DNA of 42,801 bases from Melioribacter sp. GTDB taxonomy: Bacteria; Bacteroidota; Ignavibacteria; Ignavibacteriales; Melioribacteraceae. The position numbers and the translations under genes are program-made. The DNA lies in NCBI GenBank assembly GCA_023250955.1, contig JAHEZQ010000035.1:1-42801 (forward strand), written 5' to 3'. Shown here piece after piece: positions 7,400 through 30,461 of the stretch. Under the pieces are notes generated by a model. It made no database searches and had not been told where the DNA came from. It saw only the letters and a program-made list of their open reading frames with translations. Each line of letters begins with the position of its first letter. Within the stretch, counting starts at the first letter, position 1.

Positions 7400-7472
7400 G
7401 CTGGCTTAGCTCAGTTGGTAGAGCAGCTGATTTGTAATCAGCAGGTCGCGGGTTCGAGTCCCATAGCCAGCT
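7400..7472 (+). tRNA. tRNA-Thr (anticodon TGT)
   Basis: The acceptor stem GCTGGCT (7400-7406) pairs with AGCCAGC (7465-7471), followed by discriminator T7472. The D-arm contains TAGCTCAGTTGGTAGAG. The anticodon stem GCTGA/TCAGC encloses loop TTTGTAA, giving anticodon TGT (7433-7435) that reads ACA. The T-loop is TTCGAGT. The 3' CCA is not encoded. The T-stem (7448-7452 with 7460-7464) contains one C-A mismatch (C7449-A7463) and a G-T pair. Everything to its right up to about 30240 looks horizontally acquired, so its 3' end is the probable integration site. Confidence 0.95.
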
Positions 7473-7477
7473 CTTAA

Positions 7478-7753: not shown

Positions 7754-8158
7754 TTAAGCAGCTTCCGATTTTGCAATAACTTCTGTTTGTGAAATATCAA
7801 AAACAGTTGCCGTAAAGAAATGAACATCTTCATCATCCGAAATCATTTTGGGATTTTCATCTTGCTTGGTTTTTGATGGAACAAAGATTAAAAATCCGTG
7901 TTCACCTTTGCGAACAATTCTACCAGTTTTCTTCCATTGTTGAAACCCTCCAACAATTGTGAAATTGATTTCTGATTGAGCAACAAGAAAACATTGATTG
8001 TGAGGTGTCAATAGATGCCCTTCAACTGTAACGATGCCGAATTTATCGGCTACGGCTTGGCGTTGTTCTTCCGTCATTTCTGAAAGAGTTTTCCGAAGGC
8101 GGATGATCTTCTCTTTTTTCTCCTGTCTTTTCTGCTGTTTTTGTTTTTCTGATAACAT
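7754..8158 (-). CDS. ArdC N-terminal-domain-like small protein
   Basis: The ATG at 8158 is preceded by AAAGGAGT at good distance, so I prefer it over the longer frame from 8203; the protein is 134 residues. A basic helical N-terminus (about 1-40) precedes a segment with FTIVGGFQQWKKTGRIVRKG (about 66-85), then EHGFLIFVPSK and FTATVFDISQTEV. This is the pattern of the ArdC anti-restriction N-terminal ssDNA-binding domain (DUF1738 type). Full-length ArdC also has a zinc metallopeptidase domain, which is absent here. Such proteins protect incoming single-stranded or unmodified DNA of plasmids and phages. The start lies 13 bases after the preceding small gene, whose end supplies the ribosome-binding site, so the two are probably coupled. 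Confidence 0.7.
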   Translation of the reverse strand: MLSEKQKQQKRQEKKEKIIRLRKTLSEMTEEQRQAVADKFGIVTVEGHLLTPHNQCFLVAQSEINFTIVGGFQQWKKTGRIVRKGEHGFLIFVPSKTKQDENPKMISDDEDVHFFTATVFDISQTEVIAKSEAA

Positions 8159-8171
8159 GGCTTGAACTCCT

Positions 8172-8360
8172 TTAAGATTTTTTAAGAGATTTGATAAAAG
8201 CATTTAAGAAAGTGTTTGCAGATGAATATGTTTTGAATGATTGTGAATGAAGCGAACCGGACGGAGTAAATACATTTACAAAGAATTTTTGATTTGATTG
8301 AATTAACCGAACAAGAAAACCTTTGTGCCTTTTTGAATAGTGAACTATTACCGATGCCAT
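8172..8360 (-). CDS. small basic protein of unknown function
   Basis: This 62-residue protein begins MASVIVHYSKRHKGFLVRLI. The frame is open from 8390, but the ATG at 8360 has an AAAGGT box about ten bases upstream and is the better start. It is lysine- and serine-rich with predicted short strands and a C-terminal helix (NTFLNAFIKSLKKS). Its stop overlaps the Shine-Dalgarno of the ArdC-like gene, which argues that it is a real translated gene. I do not recognise the family. It is the first gene after the structured non-coding region when read leftwards. Confidence 0.55.
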   Translation of the reverse strand: MASVIVHYSKRHKGFLVRLIQSNQKFFVNVFTPSGSLHSQSFKTYSSANTFLNAFIKSLKKS

Positions 8361-8390
8361 GACCCGACCTTTTACGCCGTTAAAAAACAT

Positions 8391-8592
8391 ATTTTGCCCG
8401 CTTAATCATGCTCTTGCGAAAAAATGACTTGTTACCATGATGGTGTAAGAAAAGATGATAATTCAAGGCAAGGGCGAACCCCGAAGAGCTATGAAATACT
8501 AAAACTGATTATCGGGGGAGTTTCATATACCCTTGCCCCGATTGACTGATAAGATTCGAATAACACTAAGCTTGTTTACCAGCGGGCAAAAT
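8391..8592. other. structured element A: long-range stem closing a pseudoknot
   Basis: ATTTTGCCCGC (8391-8401) is perfectly complementary to GCGGGCAAAAT (8582-8592). Inside, GGCAAGGG (8467-8474) pairs with CCCTTGCC (8530-8537). Inside that, CCCCGA (8479-8484) pairs with TCGGGG (8512-8517), while TATGAAA (8490-8496) pairs with TTTCATA (8521-8527). These last two stems cross, which defines an H-type pseudoknot. No convincing gene is present. It lies about 30 bases upstream of the small basic gene on the minus strand, so it could be a leader RNA, an independent ncRNA or a ssDNA fold. Confidence 0.6.
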
Positions 8593-8751
8593 TATGATGC
8601 CTTAGAATGAACGGAGTGAATCAAACAATTTGGGAAATAAATGTGTGAAGTTTTTCCGAAGGTAAGAATAGAAGTTTCTTTAAGCAATTTATGAGTTTGG
8701 AAATTGGCGCATCTTTTTGAACCAAAAAGTGTGAGCAAGAGACAAACGAAT
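8593..8751. other. spacer between structured elements A and B
   Basis: No gene and no strong stem was found in this 159-base stretch by eye. Confidence 0.4.
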
Positions 8752-8939
8752 AATTTGCGTTCGTTCTTTATGAGGGAAATATTTTTGAACGTTCTTGGTG
8801 AAAAATTATTGACCGAACTGAAAGTAGATCCCTCTTTTCATCGGGACAGGTTTCCGCTTTGTGAGGCGAAGATATAAGCCGAATCAGAGCGGTCTTTTAT
8901 TAGCGAACAATTTTAAGTGAATCGAAGTGAACGCAAATT
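8752..8939. other. structured element B: 11-bp long-range stem with internal hairpins
   Basis: AATTTGCGTTC (8752-8762) is perfectly complementary to GAACGCAAATT (8929-8939). Inside are a hairpin with GTTC/GAAC plus GGT/ACC (8791-8818) and another with CCGCT/AGCGG enclosing GGC/GCC (8854-8892). The arrangement is a multi-branched fold of about 190 bases with no coding frame, similar in plan to element A. Confidence 0.5.
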
Positions 8940-8962
8940 TGTGAGTTATTGGAATGTATAAG

Positions 8963-8995
8963 GAGAAGGGTTACCATGAATGATAACCCTTTCTC
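8963..8995 (-). terminator. hairpin downstream of the DUF6266-like gene
   Basis: GAGAAGGGTTA (8963-8973) pairs with TAACCCTTTCTC (8984-8995) with one bulged base. It starts eight bases after the stop codon of the minus-strand gene ending at 9003. There is no long U-run after it, so it may act as an mRNA-stabilising hairpin instead. Confidence 0.6.
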
Positions 8996-9002
8996 GAAAG
9001 GA

Positions 9003-9686
9003 TTAACTTAGTTTTGTGAAGGTCCCGGAGTTCTGAACAACTTTACCCTCAGCGGTTTTTGTTACTACACACACATAGAGAATGCTGTGCTGATACTTCG
9101 CGGCAGTAGCTTTTTGCAAAACGTTGAAATCCATTTCCAGATCGTAAGTCTGAGCGAAGTCGAAATTAGCGACTTCTTTTGATAGCGGGATGATCTTGAA
9201 CGGATCATCATTTTCAGAAGTTGGATCGTAGTAACAGACTAAAGCATTTGCAGAAAGATTTACTTCATCAGCTCCGAAAACCGATGCAGTGTTGAGCGCC
9301 GGAAGTGAAGCTGTAATTTTATCAGCTTCCACTGCAGCAGTCGTGATCTGCAAAGGAAAACCTTCCGGAGCGATAATGTTCTGCTCAGACGGTTTCTCTG
9401 AGGAAGAGTAAGCAAAGTTACTCTGAAAGACTTCATTGAAAACTGAGCTTGCTACATTTCTTACTTTCTTCCAAATTGAAACGAGTGAAGCGAGAGCCAG
9501 AATTGCGCTTGCAAATTTTGCAGTGACAGAGAATTTCTGCCTTACTTCTAAAACTGCTGGTTCTTGACTAGCGTTGAAACTGGATGGGCGAGCTGCCAAA
9601 ATGGTGCGACCATCAACAGTACGCGCGGAAAGGTTGCCAAGCTTACCGGATAAGTTACCGAGAACATTTCCATTTACGATTGCCAT
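9003..9686 (-). CDS. DUF6266-like protein
   Basis: This 227-residue protein starts MAIVNGNVLGNLSGKLGNLS and continues ARTVDGRTILAARPSS, the glycine-rich N-terminal pattern of DUF6266 proteins in Bacteroidota. These are often annotated near phage or mobile genes, but their biochemical function is unknown. The middle (about 60-95) is helical, and the C-terminal half looks like a beta-sandwich with YDLEMDFNVLQ and ILYVCVVTK. There is no signal peptide. An AGAGG box eight bases upstream supports the ATG at 9686. It is monocistronic with a hairpin after it. In this element it could be a structural or surface-associated protein, but that is inference. Confidence 0.6.
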   Translation of the reverse strand: MAIVNGNVLGNLSGKLGNLSARTVDGRTILAARPSSFNASQEPAVLEVRQKFSVTAKFASAILALASLVSIWKKVRNVASSVFNEVFQSNFAYSSSEKPSEQNIIAPEGFPLQITTAAVEADKITASLPALNTASVFGADEVNLSANALVCYYDPTSENDDPFKIIPLSKEVANFDFAQTYDLEMDFNVLQKATAAKYQHSILYVCVVTKTAEGKVVQNSGTFTKLS

Positions 9687-9816: not shown

Positions 9817-10095
9817 TTACAGGCTTGGTAGGGATTTGATTGATGAGGGAAAAGAAACTGGCTTTATTTGTCGTTTCCGGAACAGGATTGTGTTAACTGA
9901 ATCATAACATAAATTATACTTTTCTGAGAGATGGAAAATTGATTCGATCTGGTTGTGAGTATTTCGTAACTCTAGATATTCGAATTTGATTTGTAAATTC
10001 CGGAGGACCAATTCGTTTATCAATCCATAGGATTGAAATTCCTTAAAAAAAGGATTGGTTAATAGTTTGGCAATATTTAGTTGAGGATTATTCAT
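9817..10095 (-). CDS. small HTH-like protein of unknown function
   Basis: This 92-residue protein (from the ATG at 10095) has a region about residues 54-78 (IESIFHLSEKYNLCYDSVNT) that looks like a helix-turn-helix of the kind found in small Bacteroidota mobile-element proteins. A TTG at 10110 is an alternative start, but the ATG overlaps the stop of the nuclease gene by eight bases, a normal coupling geometry, with GGAG just upstream. Its role is unknown; DNA binding is only an inference from the helix pattern. Confidence 0.5.
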   Translation of the reverse strand: MNNPQLNIAKLLTNPFFKEFQSYGLINELVLRNLQIKFEYLELRNTHNQIESIFHLSEKYNLCYDSVNTILFRKRQIKPVSFPSSIKSLPSL

Positions 10096-10594
10096 TGCTC
10101 CAAATGCCAAGTTTATTTCTTCTTGCTGTGTTTCTGAGATTATAAAATAAATCGTAATAACGTTTTTCTTTTGTGTAGTAACTGATTCTTGCTAATCCAT
10201 TTTTAAGAAGCTCAGTTTGCAAAAAAACAGAATCTTTTCCTTTAGAATCTGTTAGCCAAACGTAAGCGAGTAACCTTCCGAAAACATCGAATGCCCTTCC
10301 ATCGAAAGTAAGTTTAACAGTTTTGTGCTCGATGAGTGATTTTATTTTCTGTTTTGCTTCGGTTGAAAAAGCTTCTGAGGGTCTACCCATTCTTTCAAGT
10401 TCAGGACAATCAACACCAAGCATTCTTACGCGTTGGGAATCTGAAAGAACAAATGTATCACCATCGATAACGCGAGACACAAATACTTTCTTTGAGAAGT
10501 TGTACAGATAGGAGAAGTTAGGATCTTGACCGAGCAACTGCGTCGAGAGTAAGATCAAGAATATGAGCACGGGCAAGAATAATTCGGCTTTCAT
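10088..10594 (-). CDS. secreted SNase-like (thermonuclease family) nuclease
   Basis: From the ATG at 10594, which follows AAAGGA, the 168-residue protein begins with a signal peptide (MKAELFLPVLIFLILLSTQLLGQ). The SNase fold follows, with family active-site residues visible: VIDGDT (D44, D46, T47), R57 in VRMLGVDCPE, E65, and R107 in FGRLLAYVW. These correspond to the calcium-binding aspartates, glutamate and two arginines of staphylococcal nuclease. It should cleave DNA and RNA outside the cytoplasm or in the periplasm. It overlaps the small HTH-like gene, so the two are one unit. A longer frame starts at 10645 but lacks a ribosome-binding site and would bury the signal peptide. Confidence 0.85.
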   Translation of the reverse strand: MKAELFLPVLIFLILLSTQLLGQDPNFSYLYNFSKKVFVSRVIDGDTFVLSDSQRVRMLGVDCPELERMGRPSEAFSTEAKQKIKSLIEHKTVKLTFDGRAFDVFGRLLAYVWLTDSKGKDSVFLQTELLKNGLARISYYTKEKRYYDLFYNLRNTARRNKLGIWSNE

Positions 10595-10763
10595 AATAAT
10601 ATTTCCTTTTCGAGAAAACATAATTGATAATGCGAAAGAGTGCAACGCTCGATGTTTATGATTTGTTTTCTTTTGTTATCAAAGCAGTATCTAAATTCGA
10701 CGAAATGGAATAGAACGCTGATGACACAGATATAACTGATTAACACAAATTGATTTCAAAAAG

Positions 10764-11170: not shown

Positions 11171-11659
11171 ATGAATGCTGCGAACTCGCTCAGCATAAAA
11201 CTATCTGATAATTTCTTTCTAAATGAATTTATTATTTCTCAAGTGGCGGAGAGACATGGATACAGAAATGAGCCGAATGAAAAACAGATTGAGAGTTTGA
11301 AATTATTATGCGTGAATGTTCTTCAACCTCTGAGAGAAATTATCAATGTACCTATTTTTATTAATTCTGGATTTCGTTCATTCGATGTAAATGCTGCAGT
11401 GGGCGGAAGATTTAATTCTCAACATCTTGAAGGAAAAGCTGCCGACTTTGTTGTTCCTTCCATGAATTTGGTTGATGTGTTCAATATTGTTTTGCATCGG
11501 ATTTCTTTTGATCAATTGATTTATGAATTCGGTAAATGGATTCATGTTTCTTGGAATGGTGAATTGAATCGAAAAGATGTGATGATATCTAAAAAGGTTT
11601 ATGGTAAAACGGTTTATGAGAACGTGAAAGGTGAAACGCTAGACGTGAGAAGTATTTAA
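11171..11659 (+). CDS. peptidase M15A-family peptidoglycan endopeptidase (phage-endolysin type)
   Basis: This 162-residue protein has the zinc peptidase M15A layout. NEFIISQVAERHG is the N-terminal helix of phage-type M15 enzymes; the core carries INSGFRSFDVNAAVGG, SQHLEGKAADF and WIHVSW. Predicted zinc ligands are H85, D92 and H125. There is no signal peptide, so export would depend on a holin. Its stop overlaps the start of the next gene by one base (TAATG), and a holin gene follows, so the three genes form a lysis cassette. The enzyme would cut peptide cross-links in the host wall. Confidence 0.88.
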   Translation: MNAANSLSIKLSDNFFLNEFIISQVAERHGYRNEPNEKQIESLKLLCVNVLQPLREIINVPIFINSGFRSFDVNAAVGGRFNSQHLEGKAADFVVPSMNLVDVFNIVLHRISFDQLIYEFGKWIHVSWNGELNRKDVMISKKVYGKTVYENVKGETLDVRSI

Positions 11660-11919
11660 TGAGTGAGAACATTTATATATGGATTATTGGAGGACTTTTA
11701 AGCTTGGTGAACTTCTTGTTTTGGTCAAGGATTAAAAGAATTGAGAAAGATGTTGACGAAACGAAAAAAAAATCATCTTCGATTGAGAAGAATTATTTAA
11801 CGCGGTTTGAAGAACTGCATAATAAATTGAGTGAGGTTGAGAAGAATATTATCCGGGAGATTTACAATGTTAAGCTGTCGGCAATCAGCCATCAGCTTTC
11901 AGATAAAGAAGGAGGATGA
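11659..11919 (+). CDS. membrane-anchored coiled-coil protein of the lysis cassette
   Basis: This 86-residue protein has one N-terminal TM helix (about 5-24, IYIWIIGGLLSLVNFLFW) and then a charged coiled coil (about 25-72). That is the topology of XhlA-like or spanin-like lysis accessory proteins. It overlaps the peptidase stop by one base and ends two bases before the holin start, with the holin Shine-Dalgarno in its last codons. The C-terminal residues KLSAISHQLSDK are encoded by a copy of the dispersed repeat rich in GGCAATCAGC, so the natural end may originally have been shorter. Confidence 0.6.
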   Translation: MSENIYIWIIGGLLSLVNFLFWSRIKRIEKDVDETKKKSSSIEKNYLTRFEELHNKLSEVEKNIIREIYNVKLSAISHQLSDKEGG

Positions 11920-11920
11920 A

Positions 11921-12316
11921 ATGGGAGTGTTAGATTTTTTAAGTGGAATTGTAAAACCAATAACCAACTTGATTGATAATCTTTCTACTTCGGATGAGGA
12001 AAGAGGAAAGCTACAAAATGAGTTGACGAAAATTGAGAATGAGTTTTTAGGTAAAGCTTTGGAATATGAAGCGAAGCTTCTTGATTCTCAAGGAAGGATT
12101 GTTGAAGCGGAAGCTAAAGGACAAAGCTGGCTTCAAAGAAATTGGAGACCAATTACAATGCTGACTTTTCTAATTCTTGTTGTCTGTGATAGTTTCGGTT
12201 TGCTTACCTTTAGATTAAGTAATGAAGCTTGGCTACTTTTGCAAATTGGGTTGGGTGGTTATGTGGTCGGTCGTACCGGCGAAAAGATTGTTGAAAAAAT
12301 AAGAATGAAGGATTGA
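11921..12316 (+). CDS. 3-TM-type holin
   Basis: Starting at the ATG at 11921, which follows a strong GGAGG, the protein has 131 residues. An amphipathic and coiled N-terminal half (about 1-75) leads into QSWLQRNWRPITMLTFLILV, a TM helix, then a second hydrophobic stretch with LLLQIGLGGYVVGRTGEKI. The RNWRPITM and IGLGGYVVGR motifs are characteristic of the phage 3TM-holin family. It would form membrane lesions that release the M15 peptidase. The longer frame from 11831 overlaps the preceding gene and lacks a ribosome-binding site. Confidence 0.85.
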   Translation: MGVLDFLSGIVKPITNLIDNLSTSDEERGKLQNELTKIENEFLGKALEYEAKLLDSQGRIVEAEAKGQSWLQRNWRPITMLTFLILVVCDSFGLLTFRLSNEAWLLLQIGLGGYVVGRTGEKIVEKIRMKD

Positions 12317-12449: not shown

Positions 12450-12498
12450 ATGCAATTAATGTGCAATCGTTGTGCAATATGTGCAATTCTTGTGCAAT
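12450..12498. repeat. five TGTGCAAT-type iterons in helical phase
   Basis: Copies of (T/A)(G)TGCAAT begin at 12450, 12460, 12471, 12480 and 12491, giving steps of 10, 11, 9 and 11 bases. The average is close to one DNA turn, so all copies face the same side. The array sits between the convergent holin and AlbA_2 genes, touching the AlbA_2 stop codon. Confidence 0.7.
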
Positions 12499-13814
12499 TA
12501 CTTTAGAGTGTAATATGAACCCGCCCCTTGTATATTACTAGTTGATATAAGACCTTTTTCTATCAAATTTGCAAGGTCGTTTGTAGCGGTATTTCTAGAA
12601 CAACTATTTAATTGTTGATAATCTTTATTTGTAATTCGATTTTTTTCTTTAAGGAATAAAATTGCTTTCACTTGTCTATCATTCAAACCCATTTTGAGTA
12701 ACTGCTCTTCTGTGAAAACGTCTTTGAATAATGTTACAGAAAAGCCACCGTGAATTTCTTTCAATTCCGGCTCTGGAAGTTCGGCATCTCTGCAAGTGCT
12801 TATAATTTTTAATGTTCCTCTTCCCCATGCGTCAATGTATCCACCTTTAAAACAAACATCTGCAATGATTGGATTGCGTGGACGGGATGGATGCTGATGT
12901 CTTAAAATTTCATTGGTTAATCCTTCCGGAAGAGTTCCTTCATTCCAAATGCTGAATTTATTATCATACATTCGGATTTGAATTGTAGCGCCAGTATAGC
13001 TTTTATGAACAAGCGCGTTCAATAACATTTCGCGTAAAGCAGCAACCGGGTATTCTCCTTTTTCGATGCGGAGAAGACCTTCAAAATTAATTGGCTTAGT
13101 GAAATATTTTCTATTCAATTGAAGCAGAACTTCTTTGAGAAGATGAAATAAATTTCCTTCTTCAACTTCTTGAAATTTTAGATCATCATCACTTTTACCA
13201 AAGCGGCCAATTTTAACAGAAACATTCGGATAAAATTTGCTGGGATCTTTACCAAAAAGAATAATTGCTGCTCGTTTTAATTGTGATCCGTTTGTAAGTC
13301 GGAGTTTATCTAAAAGCTCATTTGTTTCTAATCCGTTAGTATCGGGAAGCCGACCACTTTTTTCTGCCGCTTTTAAGTATTCAGAAATTATTTCTTCATC
13401 TATATCATTCAAAGTAGCTCTTTCTTCAATAACATCGTCCCAGGTTCTACCGGATTTTCTTAACAGGAATTCATTTAACGCTGAACCGGTTAATTCCGAT
13501 GTTGTGCTGCCAGTTCGAAAATAATATCTACCTCTGAGAGAGATGGCAACGGAATAAGGTTGTGTGATTATTTCAATAAAGTATTTTGACTTTTCTGTTT
13601 TGAGATTAACTTCTGCAGTGATACCGAGATGATTTTTAATTTTATTAGGAAGATCATCCATTAATTTTTTGTAATCCGGAACACCGATAGTTTTGCCTTT
13701 GTCGTCTTTACCTATGAGGAGATTGCCTCCTTGAGAATTAGCAAAACCACAGATGGTTTTAAGATAATCATCATGCCAGCTTTGTTTATACTCTATATTT
13801 TGGTGTTCGGGCAT
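12498..13814 (-). CDS. AlbA_2 (Schlafen-type) plus HATPase regulator with C-terminal winged helix
   Basis: This 438-residue protein has an N-terminal AlbA_2 domain (about 1-120: NIEYKQSWHDDYLKTICGFA, GGNLLIGKDDKG, YYFRTGSTT). A GHKL-type ATP-binding region follows (about 245-350: LREMLLNALVHKSY, IWNEGTLPEG, GRGTLKI). It ends in a winged-helix segment (about 375-438: LNDRQVKAILFLKEKNRITN). This is a common family annotated as ATP-binding or RNA-binding transcriptional regulators and often found in defence islands. It is the last gene of the minus-strand block and may regulate it or act as a defence component. The ATPase and DNA-binding roles are inferred from the family. Confidence 0.85.
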   Translation of the reverse strand: MPEHQNIEYKQSWHDDYLKTICGFANSQGGNLLIGKDDKGKTIGVPDYKKLMDDLPNKIKNHLGITAEVNLKTEKSKYFIEIITQPYSVAISLRGRYYFRTGSTTSELTGSALNEFLLRKSGRTWDDVIEERATLNDIDEEIISEYLKAAEKSGRLPDTNGLETNELLDKLRLTNGSQLKRAAIILFGKDPSKFYPNVSVKIGRFGKSDDDLKFQEVEEGNLFHLLKEVLLQLNRKYFTKPINFEGLLRIEKGEYPVAALREMLLNALVHKSYTGATIQIRMYDNKFSIWNEGTLPEGLTNEILRHQHPSRPRNPIIADVCFKGGYIDAWGRGTLKIISTCRDAELPEPELKEIHGGFSVTLFKDVFTEEQLLKMGLNDRQVKAILFLKEKNRITNKDYQQLNSCSRNTATNDLANLIEKGLISTSNIQGAGSYYTLK

Positions 13815-13889
13815 TTAGTTACCAAACTATATTTAAACTAAATAATATTTTGAGTTACAATATAACCATTAGATAATAATAAAAATGTG

Positions 13890-14693
13890 CTAAGCAGTTT
13901 CTTTCACTATCTCCTTAATCACTTTGGAAATTGTCAATAAATTTTCGTTTTTTTTCAGACTAACGATATATGAATGACCAGCCTTTAAGAGCAATTTGCT
14001 ATAAACTAAGTCAACGTTGTGAAAGTATTTGCTGTTTTTAGAAATAACTTCAACTTTATATTTGAATAGTTTTTGGAGTTTTAAGAACTCGTCTGTAATT
14101 ACATGAATTGATAATCTTTGACCAACAGATTTTATGCTACCAGGATTAACAATATTTGGAGAAAGCTTTCTTCTGACAGTCATGGGCTTAAATATTTTTT
14201 TGATTTTGTTTTTTGCTGATTGTCTGGCAATTTTATCTACGGCTTTATTGTCAGTATTTTTTGCATGTCCTTTGACCCATTTTATTTCAACTCTGCATTT
14301 AATTCGGAAGGAAACTTTAACTAACTCTTTCCATAAATCTGCATTTAGAACAGGTGCACCGTTCTTCAAAAACCATTTATTTTTAGGCCAATTGAATATA
14401 GCATTAGAATAATTATCTGAAACATACTGAGAATCTGTAAGAATTATGATTCTGCTTATTTCATGAAAATTTACTGATGATTCAACATGTTTTAGTGCTT
14501 GGATAACAGCGTATAATTCCATTTGGTTATTAGTAGCATTTTGGTAAGAAGGAGAATCAATATCAAGAATTTCTTCGTCTTTAGAAAAGGAAACAGGAAA
14601 TATTATGCGAATACCATAACCACCACGACGTGGATGTTGGAAGCAGGAACCATCGGTGTGAATTACTAATGCACTGTCTTCAACACTGATCAT
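13890..14693 (-). CDS. RNase HI-like protein with an unusual C-terminal extension
   Basis: Residues 1-165 form an RNase HI fold: HTDGSC (D14), NNQMELYAV (E59), LTDSQYV (D87) and the WVKGHAKNTDNKAVDKIA segment (H143, D153), so the four acidic catalytic residues are intact. It should cut RNA in RNA-DNA hybrids. Residues 165-267 are an extra basic domain (KIKKIFKPMTVRRKL and onward) that ordinary RNase HI (about 155 residues) lacks and that I do not recognise. No reverse transcriptase is nearby. It sits between DUF2188 and the AlbA_2 gene in the defence block; R-loop or phage-replication targeting is only speculation. Confidence 0.82.
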   Translation of the reverse strand: MISVEDSALVIHTDGSCFQHPRRGGYGIRIIFPVSFSKDEEILDIDSPSYQNATNNQMELYAVIQALKHVESSVNFHEISRIIILTDSQYVSDNYSNAIFNWPKNKWFLKNGAPVLNADLWKELVKVSFRIKCRVEIKWVKGHAKNTDNKAVDKIARQSAKNKIKKIFKPMTVRRKLSPNIVNPGSIKSVGQRLSIHVITDEFLKLQKLFKYKVEVISKNSKYFHNVDLVYSKLLLKAGHSYIVSLKKNENLLTISKVIKEIVKETA

Positions 14694-14730
14694 CTATAAC
14701 TTCATGAATTTAATTCTACATAGAAACAAA

Positions 14731-14967
14731 TTAGTTTTTAGTATCCTTTGGTGGATTAGGATCGTTACCATAGCTATCCTTATCACGAATTTTGCCATCT
14801 TTCCCGTGTATTACAACTTCTGATTTTTGATGCTTTGCAATTCCTATAGCATCTTTAATAGCTTTTTGTTGAGTGGGTTGAATTGAGGTGGCTTTGGAAT
14901 TTCCGGCTCCTTTAACAGCCCAGCCATCTTTGTGAGGAACCACGTGTTGATCTTTACCTTTTGACAT
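14731..14967 (-). CDS. DUF2188-family small protein
   Basis: This 78-residue protein contains HVVPHKDGWAVKGAGNSKAT and continues with QKAIKDAIGIAKHQKSEVVI and HGKDGKIRDKDSYGNDPNPP, the full DUF2188 signature. The family is short, widespread in accessory DNA, and of unknown function. A GAGG box precedes the ATG. It lies 37 bases upstream of the RNase H gene and about 100 bases downstream of the TIR gene on the same strand. Confidence 0.88.
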   Translation of the reverse strand: MSKGKDQHVVPHKDGWAVKGAGNSKATSIQPTQQKAIKDAIGIAKHQKSEVVIHGKDGKIRDKDSYGNDPNPPKDTKN

Positions 14968-15068
14968 TTTGAACCTCGTATTAAGACATGGTTAATTCCA
15001 GTTTATTTTTCCAGAACGCCCAATTTGGGAGAAAATAAAATTGTATTTGTGAAAATTTTACAGTGATA

Positions 15069-15983
15069 TCAATAATCAAGATCTCTTATCATTCTATTCC
15101 AATAGTATTTTGTTAGATCTTTGATACTGGCATGTTTCAAATCTATTTTGTCTTCTCCGGGTACAGAAAAAAGCATCATACCCAAAATATTGAAATATAT
15201 TTCATAACCGTCATCTTCAACTGTTGCACTGTCGTTAAATGAGTTAGATTCATACGACTCATCATAAGCTTCGCTGAATAATATTGAGAAGCCGTGATAA
15301 CCACTTTTATCTATCCATACTTTGCAGCCGATTACATCTTCTTCTGTTTTTATTACTGCAATAAATTTAGACTGTAATTTATCCGTTAATTTTGATTTGA
15401 CATGTTTGTTCTTATTGGCAAGTTTCTCCAATCTGCTCTTGAATCCATCTTTCAATTCTTGAAATGCATTTAACAAAAATTCTTTTTTCTCTTTCTCGGT
15501 TATTTTTCTTTTTACCAAAGGAATATCGCTATCGTCTTCAGTTTCATTTTTCGTTGAGGGCATAACACTTAACTTTGCTAATATTTTTTCACATATTTCT
15601 TGAGGATCGTATTTTCTTCCATCTAAATATCCAAGCGTAGGTCTTATGCCGAGTATTTCGGTATCATCTAATTTTACGGGTAAGATATATGCTTCATTTT
15701 CTTGGAAAGCTCTTGCTTGAGCGCTTTGCCGTTCATGGTTTGTCCATACTTTTTTAGCGTAATTCTCAGAGAGAAACATTACACAGAATTGTGATTCTTT
15801 TCTATATATATTATCCAAATACACATATAAATCTTTTCCCCAGAGCACATCTTCTTCAAAACTATCATAGAAAATGTTAACACTTTTCTTTCTTAAACAA
15901 TTAGCTACTTCATCTGCATAGGCCCTATCTTCGCCCGCGAAGGATAATGCAACATCATATTTATATTTTTTTATTTTTTCCAT
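15069..15983 (-). CDS. TIR-domain protein, probable NADase effector
   Basis: The first 140 of 304 residues are a TIR domain of the bacterial TIR_2 type: YDVALSFAGEDR, a BB-loop region around DSFEEDVLWGKD, FLSENYAKKVWTNHERQSA with candidate catalytic E84, and VKLDDTEILGIRP. Bacterial TIR domains hydrolyse NAD+ or make cyclic ADP-ribose signals during phage defence. After a charged linker, residues about 185-304 form a domain I cannot name, with alternating strands and helices; it may sense a trigger or oligomerise. The gene follows the PHP-SMC gene by 46 bases and probably belongs with it. Confidence 0.85.
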   Translation of the reverse strand: MEKIKKYKYDVALSFAGEDRAYADEVANCLRKKSVNIFYDSFEEDVLWGKDLYVYLDNIYRKESQFCVMFLSENYAKKVWTNHERQSAQARAFQENEAYILPVKLDDTEILGIRPTLGYLDGRKYDPQEICEKILAKLSVMPSTKNETEDDSDIPLVKRKITEKEKKEFLLNAFQELKDGFKSRLEKLANKNKHVKSKLTDKLQSKFIAVIKTEEDVIGCKVWIDKSGYHGFSILFSEAYDESYESNSFNDSATVEDDGYEIYFNILGMMLFSVPGEDKIDLKHASIKDLTKYYWNRMIRDLDY

Positions 15984-16029
15984 TTACTATAAATGTCTAT
16001 TCTAACGCTTTAGTTAACTCATTTTCGTA

Positions 16030-18966
16030 TTACTTTATTTCATACTTATTTTTCCTCGTTTCAAATGCAGGTTTTGTTCCTTCTAAAATATTAATTGCAT
16101 ACTCTCTCATTCCAAAATTTTCGATGCTTCCACATGTATAACGAACTAAGTTATTAGCATCCTTATTAATATTAGCATGAATAATTTGTTCTGAATCACA
16201 TACGATAGCTAGGTTAGGATTGTGTGTAACTATAATTATTTGACGTTCTTCCTTAACCTTCTTAATGAATTTGACAAGTTTTTGATAGACTGTTTGATTA
16301 TCAAGATTTTCTTCAGGCTGATCAATAATGATGGGTCTTCTATCCTTGTCAATTAATAAATAGAAAATCAAAAGTAAAGTACCTTTCTCACCAGGTGAGA
16401 GATAATCAATGGTTTTCCCTCCAAAAGTAATACTAAACTGAGGATCTAAATAAGAAAAACCATATATATAATTATATAAATCTGTTTTCTTCCCTTCAAG
16501 AATTTGGGATTCGAAATCATCATTTTGGGCTGGAACATCTCTAGAAACATCATTATGTAGTGCATTTATCAATCGATCGGGAATGCTTGCTATTGAATCT
16601 TCTGAATTAAAGTCAATTTGGTTAATTATTTTATGAAGTTGGTCTCTACCTTTTTCGATTGTATGAAATGTCCCAGCATACCGATGGTTAATGAAATCAA
16701 AGAACTCTTTTTCGAATAATCTTATGATTGATACTTTGGAATTGAATTGCAAAAAGTCTTGAATGTCGATGTCAAATTCTTGGGCTCGCGAATCAGAATA
16801 ATATTTAGCATGGGAATATAGTTCTGGATAGAATTTTAAATTTTGGTTTATGAAATAAACTATTGCAGAGGCAACTTTTTCCCTTTCCTCAATTCTTTGC
16901 TCATACTCTTTTTTTAGATCTCGCTCGATATAGTTTATCCATTTATTAAAGAATTCGATCGAATCCTTAACATCAGCAGCACCTTTAATCTCTTTTAGCT
17001 TTTGTTCCCATTTTACAAGTTCCTTTTTATAACTTGTAAACTCTCTCTGTTTTTCAGAAAGACTTTTTTCAAGAGTCTCTGATTTTATTTTTATATCGGT
17101 TTTTTGAGATTCAAGTTTATTAATATCATTTTTGAATGCAGTAACTTCTTTTTCTATTTGTTGATAAATTGTTTTGATAGGAATAGTGTTAACGGTAAAC
17201 TTAATTATGCTTTCTATAGGTATGCCCGTCTCCTTGAATACATCATTTTGTTTTATTTCGTCAGATAGCTCAATATAATTTCTTTCAAAATCGAGTATCA
17301 TTTCTTCGATTTTTCTAAATTCAAATATGTCATTGTTTTTTTTTGTAATTGCGTTTTGCTTTATCTCTATATCATTTACTAATGTTTTTATTTTTTCTCC
17401 GAATTCCGAAATATCTTTTAATATTTGTGCATTGTCTTTTTCTGATGGTGATTCAACTTTTTTAGGTTTTTGTTTTTCTATTTCTTTATAAATTCTTTGT
17501 TTCTCTGCTAATGAGTTTTTTAATTTAATTAGAACTTCAGGTTTCAAACGATCTTCTAATTTTACAATCTCTTTATTCAATTCTGAAAGTTTTTGTCTTT
17601 CGGAAATTATTCTCTTTTCAATGGTCCCAGTCCTTTTATTTATAAGGTCCGATAAGCTATTGACACCTAAACGATCCTCAATAGGTATGTGAGAAAAGAT
17701 CACTCTTTCAATTTCTTCTCTTAATCTTGATATATCTTCATCTTCGCATAAGTTATTAACAAAGGACTGTGAAAAATAAATCACTTTTGAAGGTTCGGTT
17801 ACGACATGAGAAGGATTAAGTAGTTCTTTTTCGTAAGTATAATTGTCTTTCAGCGTAATAATTGATTTATACTTATTAGCATTTTTCCATTTTAAAAATT
17901 TAGTTGGATTTAAAAAGGAATAATATTCAGTATTAGCATTTCCAGAAGAACCTATTATATCAGCTAAAGCACTTTTACCACTGCCTTTATTGCCGATTAC
18001 AGATATCAAACCATTATTCAGTTTAATCTCTTCACACTTGTCAAACCATTCATTATTGTCCAAAGAACTCTTGATTTTAATACTATCAATAAATAACTCT
18101 GGAGAATTTTTGACTATTTCTAATTTTGGGGGAATAGATGGTTGCAGCCATACTCTATCAGGTTCATAAATAATTTGTTTTAAACCTTCGAAAGTTGGGT
18201 CTGCTTTAATCCAAAAAGCTTTTGTTCCAATTTCATCTTTCTTGTGTGCATCGGAACCAGTGATAGAAGGTTTATAAAATGTTTTTAAGTAAAATTCTGC
18301 GTTATCCTTTTCGCTTGATATTTCACAAACATCAATGAAACCCTTTTCAAACAATTCCACCTTTAACGGTCCTAATGAATTATGCTGGTTTGTGTCTGGT
18401 TTTCCTTCATGATAGATCTCTTCCTCTAGACTATTACTCTTAGAACCGGCATGCACAATAACGATACCTCCTAATTTATCATGTATTAAATCCGCTGCCT
18501 CCTCAAAATTTACTTGGCATTCAAAAATACCTTCACGAAAAGCTTCAGCATCATTAAATTGTGCTGTACCAGACTGTTTTAATTTCTGTTTACCCTTTTG
18601 AATTATTTCGGTTTCGGATAATCCAAGTGGGCTTAAAATTAGATCGTGCAATACTTTATATGTTATTTCAATTCCATTAAATGATCGTGGGAATAATCCA
18701 ATTATATGGACAGACCTTTTGCCTTTATCAGTCCTAAATTCAATTCCCGGAATTACAGAGATTCCTTTTTGATCTCCGAGTTTTAAAATCTTATCAATAT
18801 TTTTGGCTGTATGATGATCAGTTAAAGCAATAACCGAAATTTCTTTTTCAATCGCTTTATCAATTATTTCTTCACACGACATCTCTCCATCAGAAGCATT
18901 AGAATGAATATGTAAATCCCATTTTCTCCATTCGGAACCGCGAGGATATTTTGAATAAGTGTCCAT
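16030..18966 (-). CDS. PHP-phosphoesterase/SMC-like ATPase (TrlF/Ppl-type defence protein)
   Basis: This 978-residue protein joins a PHP domain to an SMC/RecN-like ATPase. PHP metal ligands are complete: D17-L-H19-I-H21, D50-H51-H52, E76, H172, and D239/H241 in GSDAHKK. The ATPase has Walker A GNKGSGKS (325-332), a long coiled-coil insertion (about 430-720), signature LSPGEKG (856-862), Walker B IIIDQPEEN (D882, E885) and H-loop H915. This is the family annotated TrlF and shown to be antiviral as the single-gene Ppl system. It probably senses nucleic acid through the ATPase and cuts DNA, RNA or a nucleotide through the PHP site. The TIR and SIR2 genes flank it on the same strand. Confidence 0.88.
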   Translation of the reverse strand: MDTYSKYPRGSEWRKWDLHIHSNASDGEMSCEEIIDKAIEKEISVIALTDHHTAKNIDKILKLGDQKGISVIPGIEFRTDKGKRSVHIIGLFPRSFNGIEITYKVLHDLILSPLGLSETEIIQKGKQKLKQSGTAQFNDAEAFREGIFECQVNFEEAADLIHDKLGGIVIVHAGSKSNSLEEEIYHEGKPDTNQHNSLGPLKVELFEKGFIDVCEISSEKDNAEFYLKTFYKPSITGSDAHKKDEIGTKAFWIKADPTFEGLKQIIYEPDRVWLQPSIPPKLEIVKNSPELFIDSIKIKSSLDNNEWFDKCEEIKLNNGLISVIGNKGSGKSALADIIGSSGNANTEYYSFLNPTKFLKWKNANKYKSIITLKDNYTYEKELLNPSHVVTEPSKVIYFSQSFVNNLCEDEDISRLREEIERVIFSHIPIEDRLGVNSLSDLINKRTGTIEKRIISERQKLSELNKEIVKLEDRLKPEVLIKLKNSLAEKQRIYKEIEKQKPKKVESPSEKDNAQILKDISEFGEKIKTLVNDIEIKQNAITKKNNDIFEFRKIEEMILDFERNYIELSDEIKQNDVFKETGIPIESIIKFTVNTIPIKTIYQQIEKEVTAFKNDINKLESQKTDIKIKSETLEKSLSEKQREFTSYKKELVKWEQKLKEIKGAADVKDSIEFFNKWINYIERDLKKEYEQRIEEREKVASAIVYFINQNLKFYPELYSHAKYYSDSRAQEFDIDIQDFLQFNSKVSIIRLFEKEFFDFINHRYAGTFHTIEKGRDQLHKIINQIDFNSEDSIASIPDRLINALHNDVSRDVPAQNDDFESQILEGKKTDLYNYIYGFSYLDPQFSITFGGKTIDYLSPGEKGTLLLIFYLLIDKDRRPIIIDQPEENLDNQTVYQKLVKFIKKVKEERQIIIVTHNPNLAIVCDSEQIIHANINKDANNLVRYTCGSIENFGMREYAINILEGTKPAFETRKNKYEIK

Positions 18967-19072
18967 ATCTCATCAATATTTATTAAGAAATAAAATATTT
19001 TGTTCTTTCGATATTATCAAATTGTCGAGGCATATTTCGATTTTATTTATGCCATATCATTTTCAGTGATTG

Positions 19073-20224
19073 TCATGTAATTAAATCATTGATATACCCT
19101 TCTACTCCATCGTAATAAAACTTAATTTTTCTTTTACCTAAGAATGATCTGTATCGAAATGCTGGGAAATTTTTATAATCATGAATTTTTGGCTTATCAT
19201 TACGATGCAGAACGACTTCTATTTCAGCATCTGAACGAATAGAACTTGCTAATAAATGCCTTAATTCGAAATCTGCTAACGGAAGTGAATACCCCATAAA
19301 GACTATCTTCGATGCTTCTTGTAATTCAATTCCCGCAATTTGCCAAGTTAATTTCAGATTGAAGTTGTTCAAATCCTTTAGAAAAGTAGGCATTATAAGA
19401 ACACTGTTTAGGTATGCACCTTGAAAAGAATTATCCTCATTAAGATAATTATTTGTACAATGTATACATGTAGGTGCTGGTTTAGTAAGAAATTGTTCCA
19501 AAGCAATCTTATCAAAATATGTGATATAGACTCTTTGACATCTTTGACATTGCAACCAATTCATTGAACCGTGAAGTTTTAGAATCTTTAGATTGTATTT
19601 TCCCAATCCGCGATTATAAAGCCCCGATCTTAATTTTTCACCTCGATTACTTTCACGAAAGGAATGAGTATAAAAACAATAGTCAATGTCACCTTTATTC
19701 GTGTCCATTTCCATTCTTAACGCGTTTTCTAATATTATATCCCAGTTAGTGGATATGATAGTAAAAGGATCCTCGTCTATGTCTTTACTTCGCTCTTCGA
19801 CCAAATAATTAGCGAATTTTCTTATATGTTTTTTTCTCGCATTATCAGGAAGTTTAATTTTCATTAATATTATTATCAAAGCATTAATTTTTTGTCGAAT
19901 ATCATGCAGATCTTTTTTAGAAATATTTCTTAATGAAAGATTACTTAAAATACTTTTATCAATTGAGCTATAAATATCTTCAAGAGATAGATATTTATAA
20001 TGTTTTGGAGCAATGAAAAATAAATTTTTAAGTATATATTCGAAATTGTTTTTGCAGTCTAAAAATAATTCCTTTAGTCCATCATTATTATAATGAATAT
20101 CCCTTTCGATATCGTCAATAGTTAAAGAGAAGATATCTCTTATAATTTCTGATTGAAGTGGAGCACCAGCACTTTTAGAAAAACCAGCACCTAAAATGTA
20201 GACAACCTTATTTTTTGCAGACAT
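19073..20224 (-). CDS. SIR2-family protein, probable defence NADase
   Basis: This 383-residue protein has a SIR2 Rossmann core: ILGAGFSKSAGAP (10-22), FTIISTNWD with N160, LKLHGSMNW with catalytic H218, and VFMGYSLPLADFELRHLL. A four-cysteine zinc site is formed by C226, C229, C253 and C256. SIR2 effectors of phage-defence systems such as Thoeris, DSR and SIR2-HerA degrade NAD+. It lacks a partner of those known systems: the neighbours are KwaB upstream and the PHP-SMC ATPase downstream. The 44-base and 106-base gaps fit one transcript. A lone SIR2 (DSR-like) role is the main alternative to a joint system. Confidence 0.85.
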   Translation of the reverse strand: MSAKNKVVYILGAGFSKSAGAPLQSEIIRDIFSLTIDDIERDIHYNNDGLKELFLDCKNNFEYILKNLFFIAPKHYKYLSLEDIYSSIDKSILSNLSLRNISKKDLHDIRQKINALIIILMKIKLPDNARKKHIRKFANYLVEERSKDIDEDPFTIISTNWDIILENALRMEMDTNKGDIDYCFYTHSFRESNRGEKLRSGLYNRGLGKYNLKILKLHGSMNWLQCQRCQRVYITYFDKIALEQFLTKPAPTCIHCTNNYLNEDNSFQGAYLNSVLIMPTFLKDLNNFNLKLTWQIAGIELQEASKIVFMGYSLPLADFELRHLLASSIRSDAEIEVVLHRNDKPKIHDYKNFPAFRYRSFLGKRKIKFYYDGVEGYINDLIT

Positions 20225-20268
20225 AATAATTGGCTCTAAATATATGTGTACAATCTGGAAGAATTAAT

Positions 20269-21219
20269 TCATTTAGCAATTTGAAACTGTTTTAGTTTAG
20301 CACTTTCAACGTCAAATATTTCGTTAGTTAATTCCGATTTCAATCGTTTATTAGACAGGACCGTCAGAATATCATCTATGCTTTCTTCTGTTATTACTAA
20401 AATATCGTTATCAAAAGTTAAGCCCCAATTTTCTGAAGCGTTTAATTCTTTTACTTTAGCAATAAAGGCTGGGTTGTTATAATGACCAAGGTTTTTCACA
20501 GTAGCCAGTTTTCTCAAATACCTTTGATTGTTACCAACTCTATTTTTTAAGAGATCAATATTTTTTAATCTATCTTGAGATTCAACTTCTGCGTAAAACA
20601 AGTTTGCTTTTTCGATCATCCCTTCTCTAAAATTAAGACCTTGTTCAAAATTCTTTTTTGATAATATGAATAGAATTTCATCGTAGTATATGAAATCAAC
20701 TGTGCCGGAAATGCTAAAAATATTTTGATCTTCTAAATCATTAAATCTATTTTCTTGGAACAGCAAGTAGATCAAATCTTTCTTCTGTTTCATTTTCCAA
20801 TTTTCTTCAAGTTTCTTGAAACCAATGGTTTTGATACCCGAATTTGTTCTGATAATTATAAGATACGCCTTCGCTGTAAGGAGATCATCAACTGAAGAAA
20901 TTTTATCCTCTTCGGGATTAAGAGCACGCAGTTGTTCAAGTATTTTGATAAAATCTGTTTCTTCATAAGGCATTGTGCGAACTAAATCAGATTCAGGTTC
21001 TGGACAATCAAGTGTGTATTCCTCAAAAGAGTTCGAAGATGTAATTTTATTATGTACAATTCTCTTTAGTTTACTTTCTAAGCTCGTTTCAATTGGTACA
21101 TACTTCAAAGTATAGTGAGAAACCCTTTCTTTTTTGTATTCACCGACTAAAACTAAATGGACATGGGTGTTATTGAATGAAAGCCTTTTGAGAGATCGAA
21201 ATTTTTCTTGAATGCTCAT
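20269..21219 (-). CDS. kwaB: Kiwa protein KwaB (DUF4868)
   Basis: This 316-residue protein has the length and pattern of DUF4868/KwaB. The N-terminal part carries VHLVLVGEYKKERVSHYTLK; the central beta-rich region has AYLIIIRTNSGIKTIGFKK and GTVDFIYYDEILFILSKKNF; and the C-terminal region ends with ILVITEESIDDILTVLSN and a lysine-rich helix. In Kiwa, KwaB is the cytoplasmic, DNA-binding effector that works with membrane sensor KwaA to stop phage replication. KwaA-like is immediately upstream, three bases away, with an AGGGG box overlapping its end, which supports the pairing. The assignment rests on size, family pattern and neighbour, without a profile search. Confidence 0.75.
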   Translation of the reverse strand: MSIQEKFRSLKRLSFNNTHVHLVLVGEYKKERVSHYTLKYVPIETSLESKLKRIVHNKITSSNSFEEYTLDCPEPESDLVRTMPYEETDFIKILEQLRALNPEEDKISSVDDLLTAKAYLIIIRTNSGIKTIGFKKLEENWKMKQKKDLIYLLFQENRFNDLEDQNIFSISGTVDFIYYDEILFILSKKNFEQGLNFREGMIEKANLFYAEVESQDRLKNIDLLKNRVGNNQRYLRKLATVKNLGHYNNPAFIAKVKELNASENWGLTFDNDILVITEESIDDILTVLSNKRLKSELTNEIFDVESAKLKQFQIAK

Positions 21220-21222
21220 AAT

Positions 21223-21780
21223 TTATTCCCCTATAATTTCTTGTTGTTCAACAATCAAATAAAGATGAGGCGATAAGCAACGTATATAATAAGCATTGTT
21301 CGCTTTAACGGAAATCTTGCATAAAAACAGATTAGTAAATTTTTTATCGTCGAAGGAATATTCAATTTCATACAAGCTGTATCCAAAAAAGGCAAGGATC
21401 GGATTGATAAATACTGTTTGTGATTTAATAGTTAATACCATAAGGACTATTAAAAATATTATTACCGAGATGACATCGCCCCAAGAACCTAAATTATTAC
21501 CCAAAAAGGAAAGCAAATAAGGAATTGCATAATTAGTAAATTCATTAGAACGATTTCTGACCGAGACAACGTTATAAACTGTATTTCCTCGAGATATTTT
21601 TCTGAATGATAGATATAATAGAAGAAGACTAATAATTATAACAACAGTAAGTATTATAACAAAAGCAACATCCTTGAAAACATACTTATTGAAATCAAAA
21701 TTCTTTACAATAAATACCAGGAATAACGGAGAGTAAGCACTTATAAAAAGCATTACCGCAGTGAAAATTCTTGGTTTCAT
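21223..21780 (-). CDS. kwaA: Kiwa membrane protein KwaA-like
   Basis: This 185-residue polytopic protein has four hydrophobic segments (about 7-26, 36-59, 98-118 and a shorter one near 125-140) and a soluble C-terminal tail with NNAYYIRCLSPHLYLIVEQQ. KwaA is a four-TM inner-membrane sensor of similar size that triggers KwaB on phage attack. Sequence conservation in KwaA is low, so the call leans on topology, length, and position directly before the DUF4868 gene. Its start lies seven bases after the restriction-methylase stop. Confidence 0.7.
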   Translation of the reverse strand: MKPRIFTAVMLFISAYSPLFLVFIVKNFDFNKYVFKDVAFVIILTVVIIISLLLLYLSFRKISRGNTVYNVVSVRNRSNEFTNYAIPYLLSFLGNNLGSWGDVISVIIFLIVLMVLTIKSQTVFINPILAFFGYSLYEIEYSFDDKKFTNLFLCKISVKANNAYYIRCLSPHLYLIVEQQEIIGE

Positions 21781-21787
21781 AATATCC

Positions 21788-26243: not shown

Positions 26244-26316
26244 TTCTTTTTGCTGGATTTCTATTTCATATTACTCATGTAATTAATAACTGTCATTAAT
26301 CAACATGAGGTATGAA

Positions 26317-30239: not shown

Positions 30240-30461
30240 AATTTTAAAGGACGAGATGGACTCAAATTTTTTCGATCCATAAACGAAATGAAAATAATTG
30301 TGTCCAAGGCGTCCAAAGATTGTGGGTATAAGATGAGTTTCAATCTGTTAATAACAACATTCATTTGCAAAATAGATTAGAAATAAGACACGTTTGATTT
30401 ATTTGGAAATATTATTTAGATTTAGTCCAGATAATAATTAACCTTTAAATATGGAGAAAAA
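30227..30461. other. right junction region between the element and the metal cluster
   Basis: After the terminator there is no gene. I see a small direct repeat (GTCCAAGGC followed by GTCCAAAGA near 30301-30319). I found no clear copy of the tRNA-Thr 3' end here, so the right attachment site could not be placed. Confidence 0.4.

Follow-up and report, generated by a model that had tools for sequence, protein, structure and literature searches.

Identity of the element

The question raised by positions 8391-8592 of the Melioribacter sp. contig JAHEZQ010000035.1 is what kind of element is formed by the complementary segments found there. The window, i.e. the whole stretch of DNA which was analyzed, has 42,801 nucleotides. 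A sequence-only reading had described four complementary pairs at this place, some nested and some crossing, and had offered a non-coding RNA, a leader regulator, a ribozyme or a single-stranded DNA fold. From that list a structured and conserved element is retained, most simply a non-coding RNA, and the leader is disfavoured. We consider it somewhat better than an even chance, judging from sequence comparison, that 8391-8592 is the 5′ domain of a new putative non-coding RNA of about 400-1000 nt, depending on the locus, located on the plus strand of a tRNA-adjacent mobile island with an integrase and a primase-polymerase (Prim-Pol). Loci and genomes of the comparison carry L and G numbers, respectively.

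Stems of the element

The segments of the element are as follows.

8382-8387, + strand: A-run immediately 5′ of P1, which is the T-run after P1 on the − strand
8391-8402, + strand: 5′ arm of the closing stem P1, perfect inverted repeat with 8581-8592
8467-8474, + strand: 5′ arm of P2, GGCAAGGG, 8-nt inverted repeat with 8530-8537
8479-8517, + strand: apical hairpin P3, stem 8479-8484/8512-8517, CCCCGA/TCGGGG
8490-8527, + strand: crossing stem 8490-8496/8521-8527, 7-nt inverted repeat, lineage-specific
8530-8537, + strand: 3′ arm of P2, CCCTTGCC, pairs with 8467-8474
8581-8592, + strand: 3′ arm of P1, pairs with 8391-8402

All four claimed pairs are perfect when read from the sequence, and the repeat search gave the closing stem as 12 bp (8391-8402/8581-8592, 12 nt, 100%). 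P1 would close a rod made of P1, a large internal loop, P2, a 3′ bulge and a variable apical hairpin. The outer edge of the 3′ arm of P1 is also the end point of many matches to more distant relatives, and an A-run of at least 5 lies within 16 nt before P1 in 37/37 loci.

The chance occurrence of the stems was estimated by dinucleotide shuffles of 8381-8600. A P1 of at least 11 bp around a P2 of at least 8 bp was given by 0/1000 shuffles and a P1 of at least 11 bp by itself by 4/1000. The opinion that the crossing stems are improbable by chance was borne out for the window sequence, as a stem of at least 8 bp enclosing the crossing 6 and 7 bp stems occurred in 1/1000 shuffles and the crossing 6 and 7 bp stems within the apical 55 nt in 1/2000. 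The scan of 7474-30300 in 220-nt segments with a step of 110 gave no 11/8 nest, but it says little, since no such segment contains the whole element. Ordinary folding of 8385-8600 gave z −3.36 on the plus strand (2/200 shuffles equally stable) and z −3.72 on the minus strand (0/200).

The hairpin 8412-8418/8442-8448 was left out of the structure: 83.5% of its cells pair, much of this via G-U, and it has no covariation on the tree-tested alignment. In the core of L080 (2560-2793) a GC-rich hairpin is inserted in the 5′ internal loop; similar GC-rich hairpins, which resemble a small repeat family, occur in the 3′ domains of L069 and L080.

Relatives and distribution

In a DNA comparison with 196 related genomes, 17 matches of 242-302 bases and 72-92% identity were found besides the window. 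Shorter matches with E up to about 0.001 cover mostly 8382-8478 or 8520-8592, i.e. up to the closing stem, and those weaker than about 0.001 look like chance. After collection of the loci, 37 distinct cores were aligned by MAFFT; L032 and six duplicate loci were dropped before the first alignment, and L025 and L050, which were missed by the pattern, were added by hand. A covariance model was built from 25 of the 37 cores, whose high scores are thus by construction, and the 12 rows omitted from the model alignment were either misaligned (L115, L120, L098 and L100) or near-duplicates or rows with insertions (L063, L066, L070, L078, L014, L081, L080 and L025).

With stricter filters in both searches, the model matched 25/164 genomes of the order Ignavibacteriales, in families f1 and f3, and 11/395 genomes of the phylum sample, all 11 in the genus or family of the window. 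The order-wide search gave 41 matches at E≤0.01, of which the last three are partial or weak, and 8 matches are in G135. Of the 29 named records which the pattern search yielded, 25 belong to Ignavibacteriales-type or 'Bacteroidetes bacterium' MAGs, and the other 4 were taken as chance. A wider host range was considered and rejected: L060, L073, L074 and L068 have no P1 or P2 by eye and are attributed to chance, the first three presumably being one coproporphyrinogen-oxidase-type gene and L068 presumably lying near mraY. The IMG/VR contig L054 holds the element by DNA pattern and shares one core with L053, and the phage and plasmid records gave no match to 8340-8640.

The only find of Rfam 15 (GOLLD, ROOL, OLE, 6S and HEARO included) over the whole window at the gathering score was the tRNA, and for 8200-9010 at E≤5 there were two sub-threshold matches of 20.4 and 15.6 bits and nothing else. 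The literature search returned no paper joining Ignavibacteria with structured RNA and none on DUF6266; on satellite, tRNA and structured RNA the available text of the results held nothing relevant, just an unrelated E. coli defence-island study.

Compensatory changes in P1 and P2

Covariation among homologues had been proposed as a check, and the closing and inner stems do carry compensatory changes in the 37-row alignment. In P1 97.1% of cells are paired and 5/12 pairs are changed on both sides; in the 7-pair block of P2 the values are 97.2% and 4/7. For the named structure, made of P1, P2 and the weaker hairpin, 12/27 pairs are changed on both sides vs 4.3 in shuffles, which relatedness alone can exceed; each of five whole-structure measures was reached by 0/500 shuffles, and slid versions of the structure have 3-6 such pairs vs 12. 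Examples are CCCGC/GCGGG vs CCAGC/GCTGG (L022, L046), GGCAAGG/CCTTGCC vs GTCAAGG/CCTTGAC, AATTTGCC/GGCAAATT in L021, TTTTTGCC/GGCAAAAA in L082, L054 and L025, GGCAAGTG/CACTTGCC in L083 and CGCAAGGG/CCCTTGCG in L167.

A tree-based null was made of 25 simulated alignments of 35 rows (L115, L120, L098 and L100 left out, L163 and L164 added). Over all 19,701 column pairs no P1 or P2 pair was significant, the best having a chance expectation of about 10. For the 20 proposed pairs taken by themselves the chance numbers were about 0.01 for 8399/8584, 0.04 for 8391/8592 and 0.06 for 8468/8536, of which two pass (about 0.01 and 0.04). The power of this test is low because P1 and P2 hardly vary in those 35 rows.

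Four diverged loci, L115, L119, L120 and L121, were found via the convergent 227-aa gene and not via the element, and they have the two-stem layout at the same place with other bases. With G-U allowed, L119 has a 13-bp P1 and a 14-bp P2, L121 an 11-bp P1 and a 22-bp P2, and L115/L120 a 10-bp P1, CAAAACAACT/AGTTGTTTTG, with a 13-bp P2; in the last two the P1 sequence is almost wholly changed and the pairing stays. These layouts were spotted by eye and stem search, so that the arms were chosen for pairing; strict nests were present in 0/500 shuffles for L119, 0/500 for L121 and 7/500 for L115. The covariance model gave 27.4 bits to L121 and 22.7 bits to L119 and missed L115 and L120, and it lends the four loci little weight, since true elements on the wrong strand reach up to 25 bits. 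The proposal of a conserved structure is based on the counts of both-side changes and on the diverged loci, and not on the tree-based test.

Crossing stem and variable apex

The pseudoknot had been put forward as the defining feature of the element, and this did not hold: TATGAAA is in the crossing position in 4/37 relatives (window, L064, L070 and L076), which share one apical type, and the single pairs of the crossing stem do not covary. TTTCATA (8521-8527) is present in 21/37 rows and TATGAAA in 7/37, being 3′ of P2 in L057, L083 and L022; L061 has TACGAAA, and the shorter TGAAA precedes TTTCA in 12/37 in a bulk count. The crossing pairing is real in the window sequence and is incidental or lineage-specific, not a feature of the family. 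Lack of covariation together with equally good shuffles had been named as what would speak against the structure; neither is found for P1 and P2, and for the crossing stem covariation is lacking but the shuffles do not do equally well.

The apex differs by lineage, being a short hairpin in the window and a long P3-P4-P5 rod in 11 distant relatives, which form the 'distant' set of the 35 rows (the 'close' set has 14). The columns of this rod covary in the 11 relatives, e.g. GAAGCAGC/GCTGCTTC, GAAGCTGC/GCAGCTTC and AAACCGGC/GCCGGTTT.

The proposed 3′ domain and its reading frames

After P1 the proposed RNA would continue in a 3′ domain of more hairpins, with repeated modules in some relatives.

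8593-8995, + strand: 3′ domain of the proposed RNA, more hairpins and GCGAA motifs
8713-8729, + strand: hairpin CTTTTTG/CAAAAAG in the 3′ domain, kept in 12 loci
8966-8991, no strand assigned: hairpin separating the proposed RNA from the convergent gene, from the repeat search

In L061 the hairpin at 8713-8729 is replaced in a compensatory way by GTTATTG/CAATAAC. The distant relatives have, by eye, a module beginning like GTAGTTATGGA..CATAGCTAC one to three times. It is present two or three times in L021, L056, L057, L062, L028, L098 and perhaps L047, with differing inserted hairpins, e.g. TTGACGGC..GCCGTCAA. The hairpin at 8966-8991 was not called by the terminator scan; it is likely the shared 3′ end of the RNA and the convergent DUF6266-like gene, and the RNA would probably end there.

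In 36/37 loci the end of the 227-aa gene lies 253-1757 nt past P1 (median 408.5), and the remaining locus stops short of the gene. Between P1 and the convergent gene no ATG ORF of at least 90 aa is present in 31/37 loci; a 198-aa ORF in L063 and a 91-aa ORF in L057 are on the minus strand. A plus-strand ORF follows P1 in 4/37 loci (L010, L014, L055 and L098), starting 148-704 nt past it: in L010, L014 and L055 it has 219 or 218 aa and starts 420-704 nt after P1, and in L098 it has 97 aa. Because of these four loci our confidence in the RNA reading was lowered slightly. The 219-aa protein of L010 has no match in Pfam. A 218- or 219-aa gene adjoins the DUF6266-like gene at L010:187-846 (− strand), and also in L014, L055 and L114, and shares the strand of the proposed RNA; its protein has a signal-peptide-like start by eye.

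A small protein encoded in the 3′ domain was also considered. The plus-strand frame 8704-8877 of the window (57 aa) has 45/39/44 substitutions by codon position in 14 sequences, i.e. no codon-position signal, and in 12 translated sequences, the window included, it is broken in 4 (L010, L069, L070 and L077) and runs on for some 50 aa or longer in the other 8, which makes coding unlikely rather than excluded. A stretch of 2.1 kb at L121:380-2477 (− strand), with no ORF of at least 80 aa and 11 GCGAA motifs on one strand, may be another RNA of this type.

The island and its genes

The element is placed near one end of the island, whose main features are given below.

7400-7473, + strand: tRNA-Thr(tgt), left island edge; tRNAs are at the same place in related islands
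7754-8203, − strand: ArdC N-terminal-domain protein (PF08401, E 2.7e-7)
8172-8390, − strand: 72-aa ORF, divergent from the proposed RNA, no family match
9003-9686, − strand: convergent 227-aa gene, distant DUF6266 relative, with relatives past the RNA in 36/37 loci
10088-10645, − strand: staphylococcal-nuclease-like island protein
11171-12316, + strand: lysis module, M15 endolysin and 3TM holin
26766-30226, + strand: tyrosine integrase and Prim-Pol, right island end

The order from the left is tRNA-Thr, ArdC-like gene, 72-aa ORF, RNA, 227-aa gene, a 97-aa protein, nuclease and endolysin/holin. The cargo in 12498-24964 includes Schlafen/AlbA-like, RNase H, TIR, PHP/SMC-like, SIR2-like, KwaB-like and BREX/MADS-like methyltransferase genes, several of them below curated cut-offs.

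The 227-aa family has weak DUF6266 matches in 4/20 members (best E 0.006) and is found in 49/391 genomes of the class, with at least 7 matches in some genomes. Its predicted fold (pLDDT 87.3, helices plus strands) has weak matches in the PDB, with a best Foldseek E of 2.7e-4 and TM-scores of 0.05-0.48 among the 50 matches listed, and no function follows. The 19 loci fetched for this gene (L114-L132) gave no nhmmer hit to the element; four had the diverged form, and 15/19, some of them ended by contig edges, are without a recognisable element. A peptide pattern which reaches only close relatives of the 227-aa protein matched 7 stretches of viral contigs, none of which encodes one.

In G007 and G053 the corresponding islands are at tRNA-Thr and tRNA-Asp, the left end carrying relatives of the 227-aa gene and the right end relatives of 25310-26158, 26305-26727, the integrase and Prim-Pol. 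The genes between these ends are mostly others, save a distant TIR relative in G053; of these two genomes, G007 alone has matches to the lysis genes and G053 alone to the nuclease. The window and G007 cease to be similar in nucleotide sequence at 30308. In 15/25 scanned element-bearing sources, the window included, a tRNA lies about 0.6-1.05 kb left of the element on the same strand with its 3′ end facing the element, the types being Thr, Arg, Gln, Met, Val, Asp and Lys. The integrase and the differing tRNA neighbours suggest that the island is mobile. The search for att repeats gave none for the tRNA region within the window (≥12 nt), near 30.3 kb (>10 nt) or in G007/G053 (≥13 nt), so that the mechanism of insertion is a presumed one.

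Strand and alternative explanations

P1 and P2 alone leave the strand undecided: P1 has 5 A-C vs 10 G-U cells, 9 of the 10 G-U being at the 12th pair, and P2 has 4 vs 4. The core folding z over 27 of the 37 loci is the same for either strand (−5.3 and −5.2). The consensus of the 11 distant relatives on the plus strand has 562 Watson-Crick, 49 G-U and 3 A-C cells, and that on the minus strand (in plus letters) has 556, 11 and 14; folding a consensus for the strand it describes favours that strand, as was done for both, and the minus consensus has no matching excess. The repeated 3′ module, with 11 instances aligned, has a consensus energy of −34.3 on the plus strand vs −18.4 on the minus strand. 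GCGAA was observed 153 times vs 54 expected on the plus strand and 3 times vs 17 on the minus strand, with a density of 4.95 per kb vs 0.65 in background intergenic DNA, and after removal of the 6 loci holding an ORF of at least 90 aa the plus-strand values are 123 vs 44; the loci being related, neither these nor the wobble counts are independent. To the right of P1 the plus-strand energy is lower in 27/27 loci, and this advantage is largely one of composition because z differs little (−2.8 vs −2.3). The promoter and terminator scan found no recognisable promoter or terminator on the plus strand. Taken together, the sequence evidence favours the plus strand over the minus strand clearly, though not decisively.

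A transcript of the opposite strand is the strongest competitor, and we regard it as unlikely but worth keeping in view. It would be an RNA of about 205-270 nt, either an independent small RNA or a leader for the 72-aa/ArdC operon, starting near 8592 and ending in the T-run 8387-8382, with P1 as a long-range terminator stem. The T-run directly outside P1 in 37/37 loci suits this well, and so do the weak sigma-70-like match on the minus strand ending at 8591, the single-side changes in P1 pairs 1-11 (4 A-C vs 1 G-U) and the slightly better minus-strand fold of most close relatives. Against it, the minus strand has 1 promoter match vs a shuffled mean of 2.2, and a terminator loop of about 178 nt would be needed, which is unusual; the G-U/A-C asymmetry of the apical rod, the energies of the 3′ module, the GCGAA bias and the conservation past P1 to the right also point to the plus strand. 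A further proposal, to which we give a rather smaller chance, is that the structure acts as plus-sense single-stranded DNA of the island, as a replication origin, an initiator or packaging site, and not as RNA. A Prim-Pol and an integrase are encoded in the island itself, the element is near one island end, and G-T wobbles, which are tolerated in single-stranded DNA also, would fit too. Against this, a transcript would better suit 3′ modules which are repeated as far as the hairpin preceding the convergent gene and whose motifs are biased to one strand; the 227-aa gene also lacks a recognisable element in most of the fetched loci, some of them ended by contig edges, and an unsystematic look noticed no nick-site or iteron-like repeat.

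The remaining explanations are much weaker. A structured leader (5′ UTR) of a plus-strand island gene is improbable: the 97-219 aa ORFs at 4/37 loci and the frame 8704-8877, open in several close relatives, would agree with it, but the window has no clear plus-strand gene before the convergent gene, 31/37 loci have no ATG ORF of at least 90 aa before that gene and 2 more have a minus-strand one only, the short frame lacks a codon-position signal and the 219-aa protein a Pfam match. Still less probable is a domesticated MITE with P1 as the terminal inverted repeats of a small transposon. Its 12-bp inverted repeats would bound the most conserved part and several copies per genome occur (the 8 in G135), but the copies are at one island place near the DUF6266-like gene (36/37 loci) and not dispersed, and the P1 of L115/L120 keeps its pairing with an almost wholly different sequence. 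That the region is conserved regulatory DNA only (operators, promoters), with incidental pairing, is the least probable of all; the GGG/CCC palindrome upstream of P1 (15/37 loci, loose pattern) could be an operator, and the compensatory changes and re-sequenced arms of P1 and P2 speak against this explanation. Two functional candidates for the RNA were rejected. A CsrB-type sponge of CsrA is opposed by the absence of CsrA in the genome and by 485 GGA vs 521 expected; A.GGA occurred 211 times vs 176 expected and was above its own expectation in 20/37 loci. A regulator acting by antisense on the island is opposed by a search for exact matches, in which no complementarity with other parts of the window exceeded 12 nt and 5 matches had this length.

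Comparison with known systems

According to the available text of PMC12286853 and PMC7567579, GOLLD and ROOL are long structured non-coding RNAs of phages and prophages, often near tRNAs and of unknown function. GOLLD- and ROOL-like RNAs are also characterised by a homo-oligomeric RNA-only complex. The element described here is likewise in a mobile element near a tRNA, but it has no Rfam match to them even at E≤5, and its layout and hosts differ. PLE IIR is described in the available text of PMC7567579 as a non-coding transcript of the Vibrio cholerae satellite PLE, lying between inverted repeats and with reported antisense homology to leaders. The candidate RNA is also of a mobile element and has inverted repeats, but these form a covarying stem, its exact antisense matches do not exceed the 12 nt given above and the transcript is putative. 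RNAs of the type of P4 cI and P1 c4 are regulatory RNAs of a satellite or phage, in which the likeness lies; they differ in that no antisense target was found here by exact matches in the window and in that the RNA proposed here would be longer. The available text of PMC7567579 reports regulatory RNAs from phages and P4, and that of PMC7567579 and PMC12286853 reports phage and satellite RNAs as abundant during infection.

Possible role and value of the finding

In the proposed model the transcript would be made from the plus strand, and its closed 5′ domain would probably stabilise the RNA. The internal-loop sequences GTTTCATATA and ACTAAGCTT and the repeated GCGAA would probably be presented to an island protein or a nucleic-acid partner. 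The likeliest guess on function is that the RNA may take part in the response of the island to induction or infection, which is guessed because the element sits at the border of an island that brings its own integrase and primase, and because similar phage and satellite RNAs are abundant during infection. More tentatively, and as a possibility which we would not count as the expected outcome, the family may be a new class of large RNA of tRNA-adjacent defence islands, having a constant closed 5′ domain with one to three 3′ modules and many GCGAA. As a multivalent scaffold or sponge it would bind one protein, of the island or the host, and would control how the island responds to infection or induction.

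Large structured RNAs of mobile elements such as GOLLD, ROOL and PLE IIR lack a known function, and a further family which is unmatched to them would give a new comparative handle. The putative RNA family is tied to one kind of defence-carrying island and has several copies in some genomes. The recurring island ends, with the RNA and the DUF6266-like gene on one side and the integrase and Prim-Pol on the other, around a variable cargo would define a mobile family which can be tracked in Ignavibacteriales.
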